Source: Pontibacter populi (GTDB taxonomy: Bacteria > Bacteroidota > Bacteroidia > Cytophagales > Hymenobacteraceae). From it: DNA of 64,000 nt. The notes below the pieces were generated by a model. The model saw nothing but the letters and a program-made list of their open reading frames with translations. It was not told where the DNA came from and searched no databases. Location of the stretch: assembly GCF_019336435.1 (NCBI RefSeq), contig NZ_JAHWXQ010000001.1, positions 124,001 to 188,000 on the forward strand. Direction: 5' to 3'. Shown in pieces: positions 37,764 to 41,572 of this stretch. Made by a program: the position numbers and the translations under genes. Every line of letters starts with the position of its first letter. Position 1 is the first letter of the stretch.

Positions 37764-39647
37764 ATGAATTACCTATCTGCAGAAAATATTTCAAAAAGCT
37801 ACGGCGAGCGCTGGCTGTTTAAAAACCTGAACTTTGGTATTAGCCAGGGGCAGCGTGTGGCACTGGTTGGCGTAAACGGCTCCGGAAAAACTACTTTACT
37901 GAATGTGCTGGCCGGCAAAATTCCGCCAGACGAAGGCAGCGTGAGCATGCGCAAAGAAGTAACGATAGGCTTCCTGGGCCAGAACCCGGAGTTCGACGAG
38001 AACCTTACCGTGCATCAAACTATATTTTCGGGACAGAGCGAGGCGTTAGACGTGATCCGTGATTATGAGATCGCAATAGAAAACCCGGACACCAGCGCAG
38101 AGAAAATGCAGCACCTGATGGAAAGAATGGATGAACTGCAGGCCTGGGATTTTGAGCTGAAAGTAAAGCAGATATTATCAAAACTGGGCATCCATAACCT
38201 CGAAGACAAGATCAGTCACCTATCGGGTGGGCAGCGCAAACGTGTAGCCATGGCCCGTGTACTGATAGATGAGCCAAGCATGCTGATCCTGGATGAGCCT
38301 ACCAACCACCTGGACCTGGACACGATAGAATGGCTGGAAAACCTGTTATCGACGCAGAATACCACCTTGCTGATGGTTACCCACGATCGTTACTTTTTAG
38401 ATAGAGTGGCCAACGAAATTGCGGAACTGGACGGTGGGCAGGTGTTTAGCTACAAAGGCAACTATAGTTATTTTGTAGAGAAGAAAGCCTCGCGCGAGGA
38501 AATGGCAGCAGCTGAAACCGAGAAAGCCCGCAACTTAATGCGCAAAGAGCTCGACTGGATTCGTCGTCAACCGAAGGCGCGTGGTACTAAAGCCAAGTAC
38601 CGGGTTGATGCTTTTGAGGAACTGAAAGAAAAAGCGGCCAAGAAAGTAAGCGGCCCGCAGCTGGAGTTATCCGTTAAAACCACACGCCAGGGCGGTAAGA
38701 TCATTGAAGTAGATCATATTTCTAAATCATTTGGCAGCAAGAAGATTGTAGATGATTTCAGTTATGTGTTCAAGAAGAAAGACCGCATTGGTATAGTTGG
38801 GCCGAACGGTGCTGGCAAGTCTACTTTCCTAAATATGCTGACCGGCAAACTACAACCTGATGCCGGAACGATAGATGCCGGCCAGACGACGGTTTTCGGG
38901 TACTATACACAGGAAGAACTTCAGTTTAAGGAAGGGCAGCGCGTTATAGATATTGCCAAAGAGATTGCCGAAGTGGTGGAAATGGCTAATGGCGAGGTGA
39001 TTACAGCATCGCAATTTTTACAGCACTTCCAGTTTGCCCCGGCACAACAGTATACCATGGTTAACAAACTGAGCGGTGGCGAAAAACGTCGTTTACAGTT
39101 ACTGCGCGTGCTTATCAAAAATCCGAACTTCCTGATACTGGATGAGCCGACCAACGACCTGGACATTATTACCCTGAACATACTCGAGGATTTCCTGCTG
39201 AACTTTGGTGGTTGTTTGCTGATGGTAAGCCACGACCGCTACTTTATGGACAGGCTGGTAGAACATTTATTTGTATTTGAAGGCGAAGGCAAGATCCGAA
39301 ACTTCCCGGGTAACTATACCGATTACCGCGAATGGCTGAAGGATCAGGAAAAGCAGGAACCTGAAACCAAAACTATAGTTGCAGCCCCTGCCCCTGTTCA
39401 GGCCAGGAAAGAAGAGCAGCCGACCAACAAGCGCAAAGCGACCTTTAACGAGAAAAAAGAATACGAGCAGCTCGAAAAGGAAATAGCAAAACTGGAAGCG
39501 CGTAAAACGGAAGTAATTGGCTTGATGAACGCCGGCACCACAACTGATCACGCTCAACTAAGTGCCTGGGCTACCGAAATTGAGGAGATAAACGAGCAAC
39601 TCGAAGAAAAAGAATTCCGCTGGCTGGAGCTGGCTGAGATCATCTAA
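37764..39647 (+). CDS. ABC-F family ATPase (Uup-like)
   Basis: 627 residues with two ATP-binding cassettes and no membrane part. First cassette: GVNGSGKTTLLN (about 37-48), LSGGQRKRVAMARVLID (about 153), LILDEPTNHLDLDTIEWLEN. Second cassette: GPNGAGKSTFLN (about 346), LSGGEKRRLQLLRVL (about 435), LILDEPTNDLDIITLNILED. The linker is rich in Lys/Glu, and a C-terminal coiled coil of about 60 residues (KKEYEQLEKEIAKLEARKTE) resembles the Uup DNA/ribosome-binding tail. ABC-F proteins act on the ribosome. The C-terminal coil points to Uup rather than EttA. Confidence 0.92.
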   Translation: MNYLSAENISKSYGERWLFKNLNFGISQGQRVALVGVNGSGKTTLLNVLAGKIPPDEGSVSMRKEVTIGFLGQNPEFDENLTVHQTIFSGQSEALDVIRDYEIAIENPDTSAEKMQHLMERMDELQAWDFELKVKQILSKLGIHNLEDKISHLSGGQRKRVAMARVLIDEPSMLILDEPTNHLDLDTIEWLENLLSTQNTTLLMVTHDRYFLDRVANEIAELDGGQVFSYKGNYSYFVEKKASREEMAAAETEKARNLMRKELDWIRRQPKARGTKAKYRVDAFEELKEKAAKKVSGPQLELSVKTTRQGGKIIEVDHISKSFGSKKIVDDFSYVFKKKDRIGIVGPNGAGKSTFLNMLTGKLQPDAGTIDAGQTTVFGYYTQEELQFKEGQRVIDIAKEIAEVVEMANGEVITASQFLQHFQFAPAQQYTMVNKLSGGEKRRLQLLRVLIKNPNFLILDEPTNDLDIITLNILEDFLLNFGGCLLMVSHDRYFMDRLVEHLFVFEGEGKIRNFPGNYTDYREWLKDQEKQEPETKTIVAAPAPVQARKEEQPTNKRKATFNEKKEYEQLEKEIAKLEARKTEVIGLMNAGTTTDHAQLSAWATEIEEINEQLEEKEFRWLELAEII

Positions 39648-39655
39648 CTTTAAAC

Positions 39656-39692
39656 AACTATAAAGGCGGCTACTTGGCTGCCTTTATAGTTT
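39656..39692 (+). terminator. Terminator-like palindrome after ABC-F gene
   Basis: AACTATAAAGGCGGC, 6-base loop, GCTGCCTTTATAGTTT with one G-U pair. The outer part of the stem is the AACTATA / TATAGTT repeat itself, so the iterated palindrome has been recruited into a terminator. Confidence 0.7.
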
Positions 39693-39763
39693 ACCGTGAT
39701 ATTTCTCTTTCTGAAGTTTGCATATGTAAAATAACTTTCCCTATTTGGGGTATAGATTTAAAC

Positions 39764-39934
39764 ATGCACCAACCAGCTTCCATAGCGATCACACTTTCTT
39801 TGCCGGTAACACCTGGCCAGGAGCTGGTGCATTCTATCTATTCTTATTGCCAGAGCATCTATAGCTATTATCGCTATTATTATCGCCGTACCTACTGCGC
39901 TCTCTTTGGCAATCACACCGATCATACATCGTAA
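39764..39934 (+). CDS. Tyrosine-rich leader peptide ahead of phenylalanine 4-hydroxylase
   Basis: Short frame of 56 codons from ATG 39764; an internal GTG at 39827 preceded by AGGAG would give 35 codons. The key part is IYSYCQSIYSYYRYYYRRTY: nine Tyr codons (eight TAT, one TAC) within 19 codons, first at 39839, last at 39893. The rest of the peptide has no domain. It is followed after 38 bases by a terminator hairpin (39973-40002), and 38 bases after that by the hydroxylase gene. This is the layout of a ribosome-mediated transcription attenuator. When charged tRNA-Tyr is low the ribosome would stall in the Tyr run. A GCGCT (39897-39901) just past the last Tyr codon can pair with AGCGC in the 5' arm of the terminator, giving a possible antiterminator. 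Expression of the peptide is not shown. Confidence 0.65.
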   Translation: MHQPASIAITLSLPVTPGQELVHSIYSYCQSIYSYYRYYYRRTYCALFGNHTDHTS

Positions 39935-39972
39935 ATAACAGAAAGTCTTTACCGGCTTATCTTAAGTGATAC

Positions 39973-40002
39973 AAAAAAGCAGCGCGAAAGCCCTGCTTTT
40001 TT
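39973..40002 (+). terminator. Attenuator terminator between leader peptide and phenylalanine hydroxylase
   Basis: AAAAAAGCAG / CTGCTTTTTT, with inner GC-GAAA-GC, a GNRA tetraloop above a C-C mismatch, and six T plus TTGCTTTT. It precedes the hydroxylase start by 38 bases, so it would block that gene unless bypassed. The strand and the T-run fit the plus-strand gene; there is no other plus-strand gene between it and the ABC-F terminator except the leader frame. Confidence 0.75.
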
Positions 40003-40040
40003 GCTTTTATACCTATCCGTAACTATAAAATTACAACCTG

Positions 40041-40787
40041 ATGAACATTACACAGAACTACAGCAGCTACACACAAGAGAACCATACTGTTTGGGCCATA
40101 CTTTTCGAACGCCAGTACCAGAACCTGCAGGGCAAAGCCATTCCGGAGTTTTTTGAGGGACTGGAAAAAGTAGGCTTCAGCCGCGACCGTATTCCGGATT
40201 TTGATGAAGTGAACCAGCGTCTGAAACCGCTAACTGGTTTTGAAGTGGTGCCCGCGCCCGGCATTGTAGACGATGCGCTATTCTTTGAGCTGATCGCTAA
40301 CCACAAATTTCCGGCAACTGTCTGGATCCGGAACATGGACCAGCTGGATTACCTGGAAGAGCCGGATATGTTTCATGATGTGTTCGGACATGTGCCGTTG
40401 CTAACTATACCGGTTTACTGCCAGTTCCTGGCGCAGCTATCGCAACTTGCCCTGCAATACATTGATCGCCCTGATGTGATTGACCTGCTGACACGCATTT
40501 ACTGGTACACGATAGAATTTGGGTTGTTTACTGATAATGGCAAAACACTGATCTATGGCGCCGGTATTCTTTCCTCTGTAGGAGAAAGCAACCTGTCTGT
40601 TTCTGATGCCAGCACCAAATTCACTTTTGATGTAGCGCAGATACTGGAAACTTCTTACATAAAAGAGACTTTCCAGAGCCAGTATTTCCATATCTCTGAT
40701 TTTAACGAATTGCTGGAGGCTCTGCCAGCCTTAACTATAGCTCTCGACAAATTAAAAGCAGAACTGGAAATACCTGCCACTTTATAA
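40041..40787 (+). CDS. phhA: Phenylalanine 4-monooxygenase
   Basis: 248 residues. Pterin-dependent non-haem iron enzyme that hydroxylates Phe to Tyr. The iron ligands are visible: two His in MFHDVFGHVPLL (about 112 and 117) and Glu in RIYWYTIEFGLFTDNG (about 159). The N-terminal VWAILFERQYQNL and PDFDEVNQRLKPLTGFEVVP are typical of the bacterial short form, which lacks the regulatory ACT domain. Immediately upstream is the Tyr-rich leader and terminator, suggesting that Tyr shortage induces the enzyme. In this organism the enzyme may therefore serve Tyr supply as well as Phe breakdown. No pterin carbinolamine dehydratase gene is next to it. Confidence 0.94.
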   Translation: MNITQNYSSYTQENHTVWAILFERQYQNLQGKAIPEFFEGLEKVGFSRDRIPDFDEVNQRLKPLTGFEVVPAPGIVDDALFFELIANHKFPATVWIRNMDQLDYLEEPDMFHDVFGHVPLLTIPVYCQFLAQLSQLALQYIDRPDVIDLLTRIYWYTIEFGLFTDNGKTLIYGAGILSSVGESNLSVSDASTKFTFDVAQILETSYIKETFQSQYFHISDFNELLEALPALTIALDKLKAELEIPATL

Positions 40788-40790
40788 AAC

Positions 40791-40823
40791 AAAAGCCCGG
40801 CTATAGTTGTAGCCGGGCTTTTT
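40791..40823 (+). terminator. Terminator of phhA
   Basis: Perfect 13-base stem AAAAGCCCGGCTA / TAGCCGGGCTTTT with a loop made from TAGTTG, then TTT. Confidence 0.9.
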
Positions 40824-40894: not shown

Positions 40895-41572
40895 TCAATG
40901 TGTCAGCGTAGAACTCACCTGGAAGCCTAATTTACGTGGCTGTGTGATCACGTTTTCCTGTTTCTGTTTCAGGGTAATACGTTCTATTTCGCTCACATCC
41001 TGGCCCATTAAGTCGTTGTTTACGGCGGCAACCATGGCGCTTTCAATTATCAGGCGTAGTGTTTTGTTGTTGATCACATTCTGGGCAATGCGGTCGTAAG
41101 GCAGCTCCATCTGTTTCACGCCTTCAATTACAAAATGGCGGTCTATGTTTATCAGCATGCGGCCAACCAGGTAACCGGGGTCATCCATACGGTTATATTT
41201 TATAGTATCGGCCATAAAGTTGTATGCCATTATATGCCCGAAAAACCTGCGCCTGAAATCTTCTTCGATGTAGTCGTTCTTCATCAGCTCATAATCTTCC
41301 GGGAACGTGATGATGTTGGTGTGCATGATAAACATGAGCATGTCGCCGGAGAACTTTACATGAAACTCGAATTCGCTGATATTTATGTATTCGATAATTA
41401 CATCAGCGTCTTTCTTGGTTATCCGGGTGGTCAGTTTCTTTACTATATCCTGGGCAATTTCCTTCATCCTGTCGAAGGTGGCTTTTGTGTTGCGGTAAAT
41501 AGCCTGCTTAGTTACAGATTTCTGATGAAGCCCATTAATAATATCGTTAAGTCTTTCTTCTGATACTGCCAT
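40895..41572 (-). CDS. Conserved Bacteroidota hypothetical protein
   Basis: 225 residues, no signal peptide or membrane helix. Central region EFEFHVKFSGDMLMFIMHTN and RRFFGHIMAYNFMADTIKYN looks like an alpha/beta fold, and the C-terminal SEIERITLKQKQENVITQPR is charged. I recognise it only as a protein of the Cytophagales/Flavobacteriia type without assigned function. It is a single gene, between phhA (converging) and the CoA-transferase gene on the same strand, from which it is about 100 bases away. Confidence 0.65.
   Translation of the reverse strand: MAVSEERLNDIINGLHQKSVTKQAIYRNTKATFDRMKEIAQDIVKKLTTRITKKDADVIIEYINISEFEFHVKFSGDMLMFIMHTNIITFPEDYELMKNDYIEEDFRRRFFGHIMAYNFMADTIKYNRMDDPGYLVGRMLINIDRHFVIEGVKQMELPYDRIAQNVINNKTLRLIIESAMVAAVNNDLMGQDVSEIERITLKQKQENVITQPRKLGFQVSSTLTH

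Follow-up and report, generated by a model that had tools for sequence, protein, structure and literature searches.

A putative tyrosine-codon leader-peptide attenuator ahead of the phenylalanine hydroxylase gene phhA in Pontibacter populi and other Bacteroidia

Leader-peptide attenuation is also known from his, leu and ilv, and in attenuators of the trpL/pheL type the RNA follows a scheme of 1:2, 2:3 and 3:4 pairings, the gene behind it making the amino acid that is sensed; the phhA arrangement proposed here would share both features. In Escherichia coli, trpL and pheL have been described as leader-peptide attenuators (PMC11802643). According to the accessible part of the same source, AroR of Corynebacterium glutamicum, which lies ahead of aroF, answers Phe limitation, and Tyr availability is without effect (PMC11802643). 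As far as the available text of the respective papers goes, phhA was treated as catabolic in an attenuator survey (PMC1173090), and gammaproteobacterial phhA was placed under TyrR/PhhR (PMC3223726, PMC5343134). GapMind, in the portion of its description at hand, proposes Tyr synthesis by phenylalanine hydroxylase (PAH) in Dyella, Legionella and Echinicola vietnamensis (PMC7311316), the last being a member of the Cytophagales.

The window analysed here is the whole stretch of 64,000 nt at positions 124,001 to 188,000 of contig NZ_JAHWXQ010000001.1 from Pontibacter populi. Ahead of phhA, it very probably contains a transcription attenuator of the ribosome-mediated type, through which the level of charged tRNA-Tyr controls this gene; no expression, start-site or 3'-end data are available. 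What could be read from sequence are the parts of the putative switch (Table 1), their mutual exclusion, their recurrence and the constraint on the in-frame Tyr codons. The initial annotation had described nine Tyr codons within 19 (39839-39895), and this run was recovered base-exact when the sequence was re-read. Its other positions hold as well, namely GCGCT at 39897-39901, the terminator at 39973-40002 and phhA from 40041; the terminator loop is GAAA, and AGCGC is at 39981-39985. The leader frame has its own start and stop codons, both located ahead of the terminator (frame 39764-39934; terminator from 39973).

Table 1. Predicted features of the phhA locus, in window coordinates
Feature	Coordinates	Strand	Basis or remark
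Putative promoter region (TTTGC ... TATTTG)	39715..39750	+	By eye, weak
Leader reading frame, 56 codons, MHQPASIAITLSLPVTPGQELVHSIYSYCQSIYSYYRYYYRRTYCALFGNHTDHTS	39764..39934	+	ATG at 39764, stop ending 39934
Hairpin in 5' part of leader RNA; start codon region 39764-39771 pairs with 39825-39832	39764..39832	+	Minimum-energy fold
Tyr run (9 of 19 codons), suggested to sense charged tRNA-Tyr	39839..39895	+	Read from sequence
Region 1 (ATTGCCAGAG), within Tyr run; partner 39904-39913	39846..39855	+	Fold, 10 pairs, one G-U
Antiterminator 5' strand, immediately 3' of last Tyr codon	39896..39916	+	Partial-RNA fold
Core of region 2 (CTTTGGCAAT), pairs with region 1; overlaps antiterminator strand	39904..39913	+	Fold; genus pair counts
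Antiterminator 3' strand, includes terminator 5' arm	39966..39986	+	Partial-RNA fold
Intrinsic terminator, GAAA loop and T tract, AAAAAAGCAGCGC-GAAA-GCCCTGCTTTTTT	39973..40002	+	Sequence; fold -14.0 kcal/mol
phhA, phenylalanine 4-monooxygenase (biopterin-dependent)	40041..40787	+	Pfam PF00351 5e-42; NCBIfam NF008877 7.6e-80
Terminator 3' of phhA	40791..40822	+	Terminator scan

The fold of 39965-40010 reached z = -4.54 against 200 shuffles. A simple promoter/terminator scan of the window did not list the attenuator terminator (39973-40002), whose stem has a C.C mismatch. When the RNA up to 39892 was omitted and the terminator 3' arm was absent, the antiterminator 39896-39916:39966-39986 was obtained, which comprises 17 pairs with interruptions (-19.8 kcal/mol for the complete fold of 39893-39992 and -16.3 kcal/mol for the duplex by itself). 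The initial annotation had guessed a pairing of GCGCT with AGCGC, and this pairing forms the outer part of the longer structure. It had also called for a comparison of alternative folds, which yielded the 1:2 hairpin, the antiterminator and the terminator as mutually exclusive structures: 1:2 and 2:3 overlap at 39904-39913, and 2:3 occupies 39973-39986. Once all RNA to 40004 is allowed to fold, the terminator is retained at minimum energy (-28.1 kcal/mol), from which it is inferred that a working switch relies on the order in which its parts are transcribed. A further point against the model is that the stop codon is found 16 nt past the antiterminator strand, so that a ribosome waiting there would hardly cover region 2.

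In the proposed mechanism, RNA polymerase would initiate slightly 5' of the leader and a ribosome would translate it. At ample Tyr-tRNA the ribosome would clear the Tyr run, the 1:2 hairpin (39846-39855:39904-39913) could form behind it, and the terminator would then end transcription. At scarce Tyr-tRNA it would stall within the run and mask region 1, leaving 39896-39916 free for 39966-39986; this pairing would sequester the terminator 5' arm, so that phhA would be transcribed and Phe converted to Tyr. Translation of the leader, stalling and Tyr-dependent read-through are inferred. It is possible that the modelled start-codon hairpin (39764-39832) provides an extra control of leader translation.

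By eye, TTGCGTTT and a second TTGC-type element could be recognized just 5' of the leader ATG in most other Pontibacter leaders. Upstream regions were also scanned with a Bacteroidetes promoter pattern; no full match was found ahead of 42 leaders, only the second half in L042 and nothing in L001, and for want of a match in L001 the promoter call in Table 1 is regarded as weak. As a separate observation on the window, an abundant dispersed motif is the octamer AACTATAG, which lies within the palindrome AACTATAGTT: it has 98 sites from 246 to 63416, compared with 2.4 expected in shuffles (largest 7).

Within Pontibacter, a phhA match was found in 42 of 50 genomes, and every one of the 42 has a Tyr-dense frame upstream. 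Forty of these leaders resemble the window frame, with types including SYCLSVYSYYSYYYRYY, DCYRAAYYCYGYYYRC and the window's own SYCQSIYSYYRYYYRR; the other two represent a different Tyr-rich leader. At L041 and L042 phhA is 51-54% identical, the leaders are MNNAYYYYYYHQSRRFGVGC and MKITNNAYAYYYYRRNSCFGMGC, and the antiterminator strands, compared by eye, differ and match their own terminators (L050 duplicates L041 and was left out). In G045 the divergent phhA match (L041/L050; G045:C1:738904-739638) has an in-frame TAA, which may mean a decayed gene or a match that overruns the gene end.

The N-terminal part of the leader, about 25 codons, looks alike across the genus. Codon constraint was estimated from 24 of the 40 similar leaders, which share an equal layout, and from 11 leaders of the second type, pairs being pooled without a tree and without correction for descent. 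Over codons 1-15 of the Tyr run, pN/pS was 0.34 in frame, compared with 0.76 and 0.67 when the other two frames were read (24 sequences). The 24 N-terminal codons gave 0.85 in frame versus 0.52 and 0.87 (24 sequences), and the N-terminal part of the second leader type 0.66 versus 0.77 and 0.94 (11 sequences). By these values the Tyr run is constrained in frame, and no clear amino-acid constraint is apparent in the N-terminal part, where a weak one is not excluded. In genus genomes the pattern Y.YY.YYY occurs ahead of phhA and elsewhere mostly in simple repeats. Only five of the places outside phhA leaders were read (L192, L200-L203), comprising two out-of-frame poly-Thr stretches, two of AT-rich or repeat DNA and one unclear case (L203).

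Beyond the genus, phhA matches were obtained in 266 of 390 genomes of the order (genus included), 142 of 160 of the family and 79 of 295 of the class. Some class matches lie within the order, many are hydroxylases of about 590 residues, which were left out of the sample, and G726 and G747 (partial or with stops) were left out too. The sample consisted of 135 non-genus upstreams, of which the order supplied 95, the family 4 more and the class 36; they were taken by ranked listings and not at random. A leader was scored when, at most 330 nt 5' of phhA (278 nt for L114), there was a frame of 8-75 codons that opens with ATG and has 4 or more Tyr within 12 codons. This rule was passed by 42/42 genus upstreams and by 45 of the 135 others, the latter under 14 family labels. 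Over 100 rounds of dinucleotide shuffling the chance level averaged 0.31 for the genus and 1.07 for the others (maxima 2 and 5), and on the antisense strand 0 and 1 passed, respectively. With the same threshold applied to the other 19 amino acids outside the genus, Leu reached 20, Ala 10 and Ser 10 of 135 against 45 for Tyr; at a threshold of at least 5, Tyr was found in 28 of 135 and the next, Ala, in 7.

By family label, leaders were present in 17/19 non-genus upstreams of f1 (the two failing ones have three Tyr each), 12/26 of f19, 2/4 of f5 and 1/1 each of f17 and f9. Among class families the counts were 4/5 for f58, 1/2 for f41, 1/4 for f22 and 1/1 each for f56, f57, f65, f66, f70 and f84. 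By the same rule, no Tyr-dense frame was found in 90 of the 135 non-genus upstreams, with 0/15 in f11, 0/9 in f2, 0/8 in f4, 0/6 in f18, 0/5 in f14 and likewise in others. For 80 named loci, considered over 400 nt, 47 passed, that is 19/19 from Pontibacter and 28/61 from others; passing genera include Marivirga, Roseivirga, Fulvivirga, Nafulsella, Hymenobacter and Aureispira, and no Tyr leader was found in the 11 Algoriphagus phhA upstreams. Judged from these upstream regions, the predicted Tyr leader is common ahead of phhA, not universal. There are many leader types with little in common except the Tyr codons (compare MNFTHNTYYYYYQSPKGIGNGSVMHIL and MLLTTRYYAYAYYAPARSGAATACLGG), and most non-genus leaders are short, with few residues before the Tyr run.

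Several cases lie at the margin of the rule. Its 330-nt limit omits f5 frames at about -370 to -390 (L063, L068), and a frame at -464 in L136 (f14) is doubtful. In eleven upstreams that fail the rule, no frame does better than three Tyr in 12 codons, and a few of these are probably real leaders. The leaders of f22 and f66 are doubtful because they are without a terminator; L138 (f22) passed the Tyr rule and has no real terminator, L167 has none, and both are held to be doubtful. As a further observation, several family members (G262, G311, G413 and others) have two phhA-like genes in tandem, about 0.4 kb apart. At L105, L110 and L123 identity to the window protein is 42-46% for the first copy and 51-52% for the second, and the Tyr leader sits between the copies, 5' of the second.

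Terminators were scored as hairpins of -5 kcal/mol or lower that carry a T tract. Such a hairpin was found behind 85 of 87 leaders, including 42/42 in the genus; among controls, it was present in the last 200 nt of 20 of 90 leaderless upstreams and in 3-4 of 87 shuffled segments. Whether leader tail and terminator belong together was assessed by swapping partners among 28 of 43 non-genus leaders, 15 near-duplicates having been removed, with some likeness left (e.g. L099, L121). The 2:3 duplex, formed by the segment behind the Tyr run and the terminator 5' arm, reached -14.13 with its own partner versus -11.26 (sd 0.46) with permuted ones. For 1:2, in which the segment up to and in the Tyr run pairs with the one behind it, the values were -17.68 versus -13.85 (sd 0.60). 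In both cases none of 20000 permutations was as good.

Inside the genus, 2:3 partner swaps were weak (median z -0.71). Pairs were counted there in 36 of 40 sequences, because L021, L022, L025 and L029 lack the anchor motif. Ten 1:2 pairs were paired in 306 of 360 cells, one of the pairs being A-T in 6 sequences, T-A in 16 and unpaired in 14. Six inner 2:3 pairs were paired in 182 of 216 cells, one being C-G in 25 and G-C in 11. The poor pairs comprise 1:2 pairs holding in 9/36 and 22/36 and two inner 2:3 pairs in 19/36 and 20/36; the middle and outer 2:3 helices were compared by eye only. These comparisons bear on the computational checks that the initial annotation had put forward, and their outcome favours its reading. 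Tyr leaders with terminators do recur 5' of phhA, in the genus and beyond, and the synonymous/nonsynonymous pattern (pN/pS 0.34) speaks for in-frame selection on the Tyr run. The pairings, for which it had asked for covariation, are supported by partner swaps outside the genus and, more weakly, by some two-sided changes within it; the 2:3 swaps in the genus were weak.

The product of phhA scores over the cut-off of NCBIfam NF008877 and somewhat below that of TIGR01267. From the Pfam and NCBIfam matches, and without an activity assay, the gene after the attenuator is predicted to make Tyr, the amino acid that would be sensed. TyrA (PF02153) scores over cut-off in 27 of the 50 genus genomes; the weak PF02153 match in the window genome (G000) resembles 6-phosphogluconate dehydrogenase instead. 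In the genus, phhA is present in each of the 23 genomes that have no TyrA over cut-off, and TyrA in each of the 8 that have no phhA (Fisher p 0.005, uncorrected for descent). No match to prephenate dehydratase (PF00800) was found in 16/50 genus genomes, G000 included, and 15 of these 16 also miss TyrA, a double loss in 15/50; chorismate synthase is present in 50/50, G000 included. Since G000 has neither prephenate dehydratase nor prephenate dehydrogenase over cut-off, it is inferred that Phe from outside is probably needed and that Tyr is made from it. The window species is thus predicted to be probably a Phe auxotroph that obtains Tyr from Phe, with the reservation that divergent enzymes would be missed.

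In f19, a clear TyrA is missing in 6 of 12 leader-bearing genomes and in 0 of 14 leaderless ones. In two genomes, G297 and G330 (the latter Fulvivirga sediminis), a trpA-like frame and DAHP synthase are followed by the Tyr leader, phhA, an aminotransferase and tyrA; three G297 proteins were called by Pfam, and trpA and the genes of G330 were identified by eye. In G228 these aromatic genes are located apart from phhA. Homogentisate dioxygenase (PF04209) was matched in 0/50 genus genomes and only marginally, twice, in 390 order genomes; the model is nearly silent order-wide and may miss the form of this phylum, so this says nothing on catabolism. The biosynthetic use of PhhA implied by the initial annotation is supported by gene content and by the operons, with Echinicola vietnamensis as a precedent in the literature, as given in the available part of the source (PMC7311316). 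Beside phhA, an open frame of 225 residues at 40895-41572 (-) gave no Pfam match at E 0.001, and pieces of a very similar protein adjoin phhA in other Pontibacter loci.

Other explanations of the Tyr-rich frame should be weighed against attenuation. In nascent-peptide arrest of the TnaC type, a known model, the sequence of the leader peptide in the ribosome tunnel would detect free tyrosine or some other ligand, the Tyr residues being part of the arrest motif. The N-terminal part of about 25 codons, similar genus-wide and longer than a classical leader requires, would suit such a switch, as would the hairpin that possibly pairs the leader start codon. However, this part is without clear constraint (pN/pS 0.85, n=24; 0.66, n=11), most non-genus leaders are short and no common motif except Tyr is found, which leaves arrest a very slim chance. 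A T-box or another tRNA- or ligand-binding tyrosine riboswitch, with an incidental open frame, would account for the intrinsic terminator, and Tyr T-boxes are common in Firmicutes. Rfam gave no family at gathering score at 39600-40100, and its four sub-threshold matches up to E 1 include no T-box. Moreover, it is Tyr codons and no conserved fold that recur over families, and the Tyr run shows in-frame constraint, so a riboswitch is scarcely credible here.

The frame stops before the terminator and could pass as a small hypothetical protein, so that an independent gene for a small tyrosine-rich protein, followed by an ordinary terminator and lying by chance 5' of phhA, might be imagined. This is hardly tenable, because very different forms recur ahead of phhA, the genus occurrences of Y.YY.YYY are phhA leaders and otherwise mostly simple repeats, and leader tail and terminator fit each other beyond what swaps give. 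A further reading accepts Tyr attenuation and holds that PhhA serves mainly catabolism, pigment or the like rather than protein tyrosine, the switch merely sparing Tyr pools. The retention of phhA and leader in 19 of the 27 TyrA-bearing genus genomes leaves some room for it. Nevertheless, it is judged quite unlikely: induction by Tyr shortage would make little sense for catabolism, phhA is the only recognised Tyr route in 23/50 genus genomes, and in two genomes it shares an operon with genes of aromatic biosynthesis.

On the preferred reading of a tRNA-Tyr attenuator serving Tyr synthesis, we lean slightly towards a broader view. Bacteroidia would have repeatedly evolved a Tyr-starvation attenuator for phenylalanine hydroxylase, or kept one while rewriting nearly all but its Tyr codons. 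In lineages like this Pontibacter, apparently unable to make Phe or Tyr from chorismate, Tyr would be conditionally essential, and imported Phe would be spent on Tyr only at a shortage of Tyr-tRNA. If true, this would be a bacterial counterpart of the animal Phe-to-Tyr economy, governed by the product and not by the substrate. The attenuator itself would add a Tyr-specific leader-peptide system to a taxonomic class in which little such control has been described, and link a bacterial phenylalanine hydroxylase to Tyr synthesis by regulatory logic besides fitness data. A phhA behind a Tyr leader is predicted to be biosynthetic, and genomes without tyrA therefore need not count as Tyr auxotrophs. 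In addition, the many rewritten attenuators form a natural set in which co-evolution of codon run, leader tail and terminator can be observed.

No Tyr leader-peptide attenuator or phhA attenuator was found in the open-licence literature, covered by titles and abstract beginnings, with subscription journals mostly uncovered. The mechanism is textbook knowledge; the combination of Tyr, phhA and taxonomic range is new as far as this search reaches. In the same phylum, structured 5' regions of amino-acid biosynthesis operons of Flavobacterium psychrophilum were read as leader-peptide attenuation, and tyrosine and phenylalanine are absent from the main text of that paper, to the extent that it is accessible (PMC9723704). 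The Merino database holds computed attenuators 5' of tyrA operons, which like the phhA case concern Tyr biosynthesis; the available part of its description does not tie them to Tyr leader peptides or to phhA (PMC1173090). PAH as a Tyr route in Dyella, Legionella and Echinicola vietnamensis resembles the situation in Pontibacter, and its regulation is not mentioned in the accessible portion of the source (PMC7311316). AroR of Corynebacterium glutamicum is like the phhA leader in that a ribosome stalls 5' of an aromatic gene, at Phe-Tyr-Phe codons, whereas its gene encodes DAHP synthase and, according to the text at hand, it does not respond to Tyr (PMC11802643). With trpL and pheL, as this source presents them, the phhA leader would share the short frame with codons of the regulatory amino acid and the setting of read-through by charged tRNA (PMC11802643); unlike them, the proposed phhA attenuator has Tyr codons, precedes a gene outside the chorismate branches, belongs to Bacteroidia and has leaders that vary widely between families.
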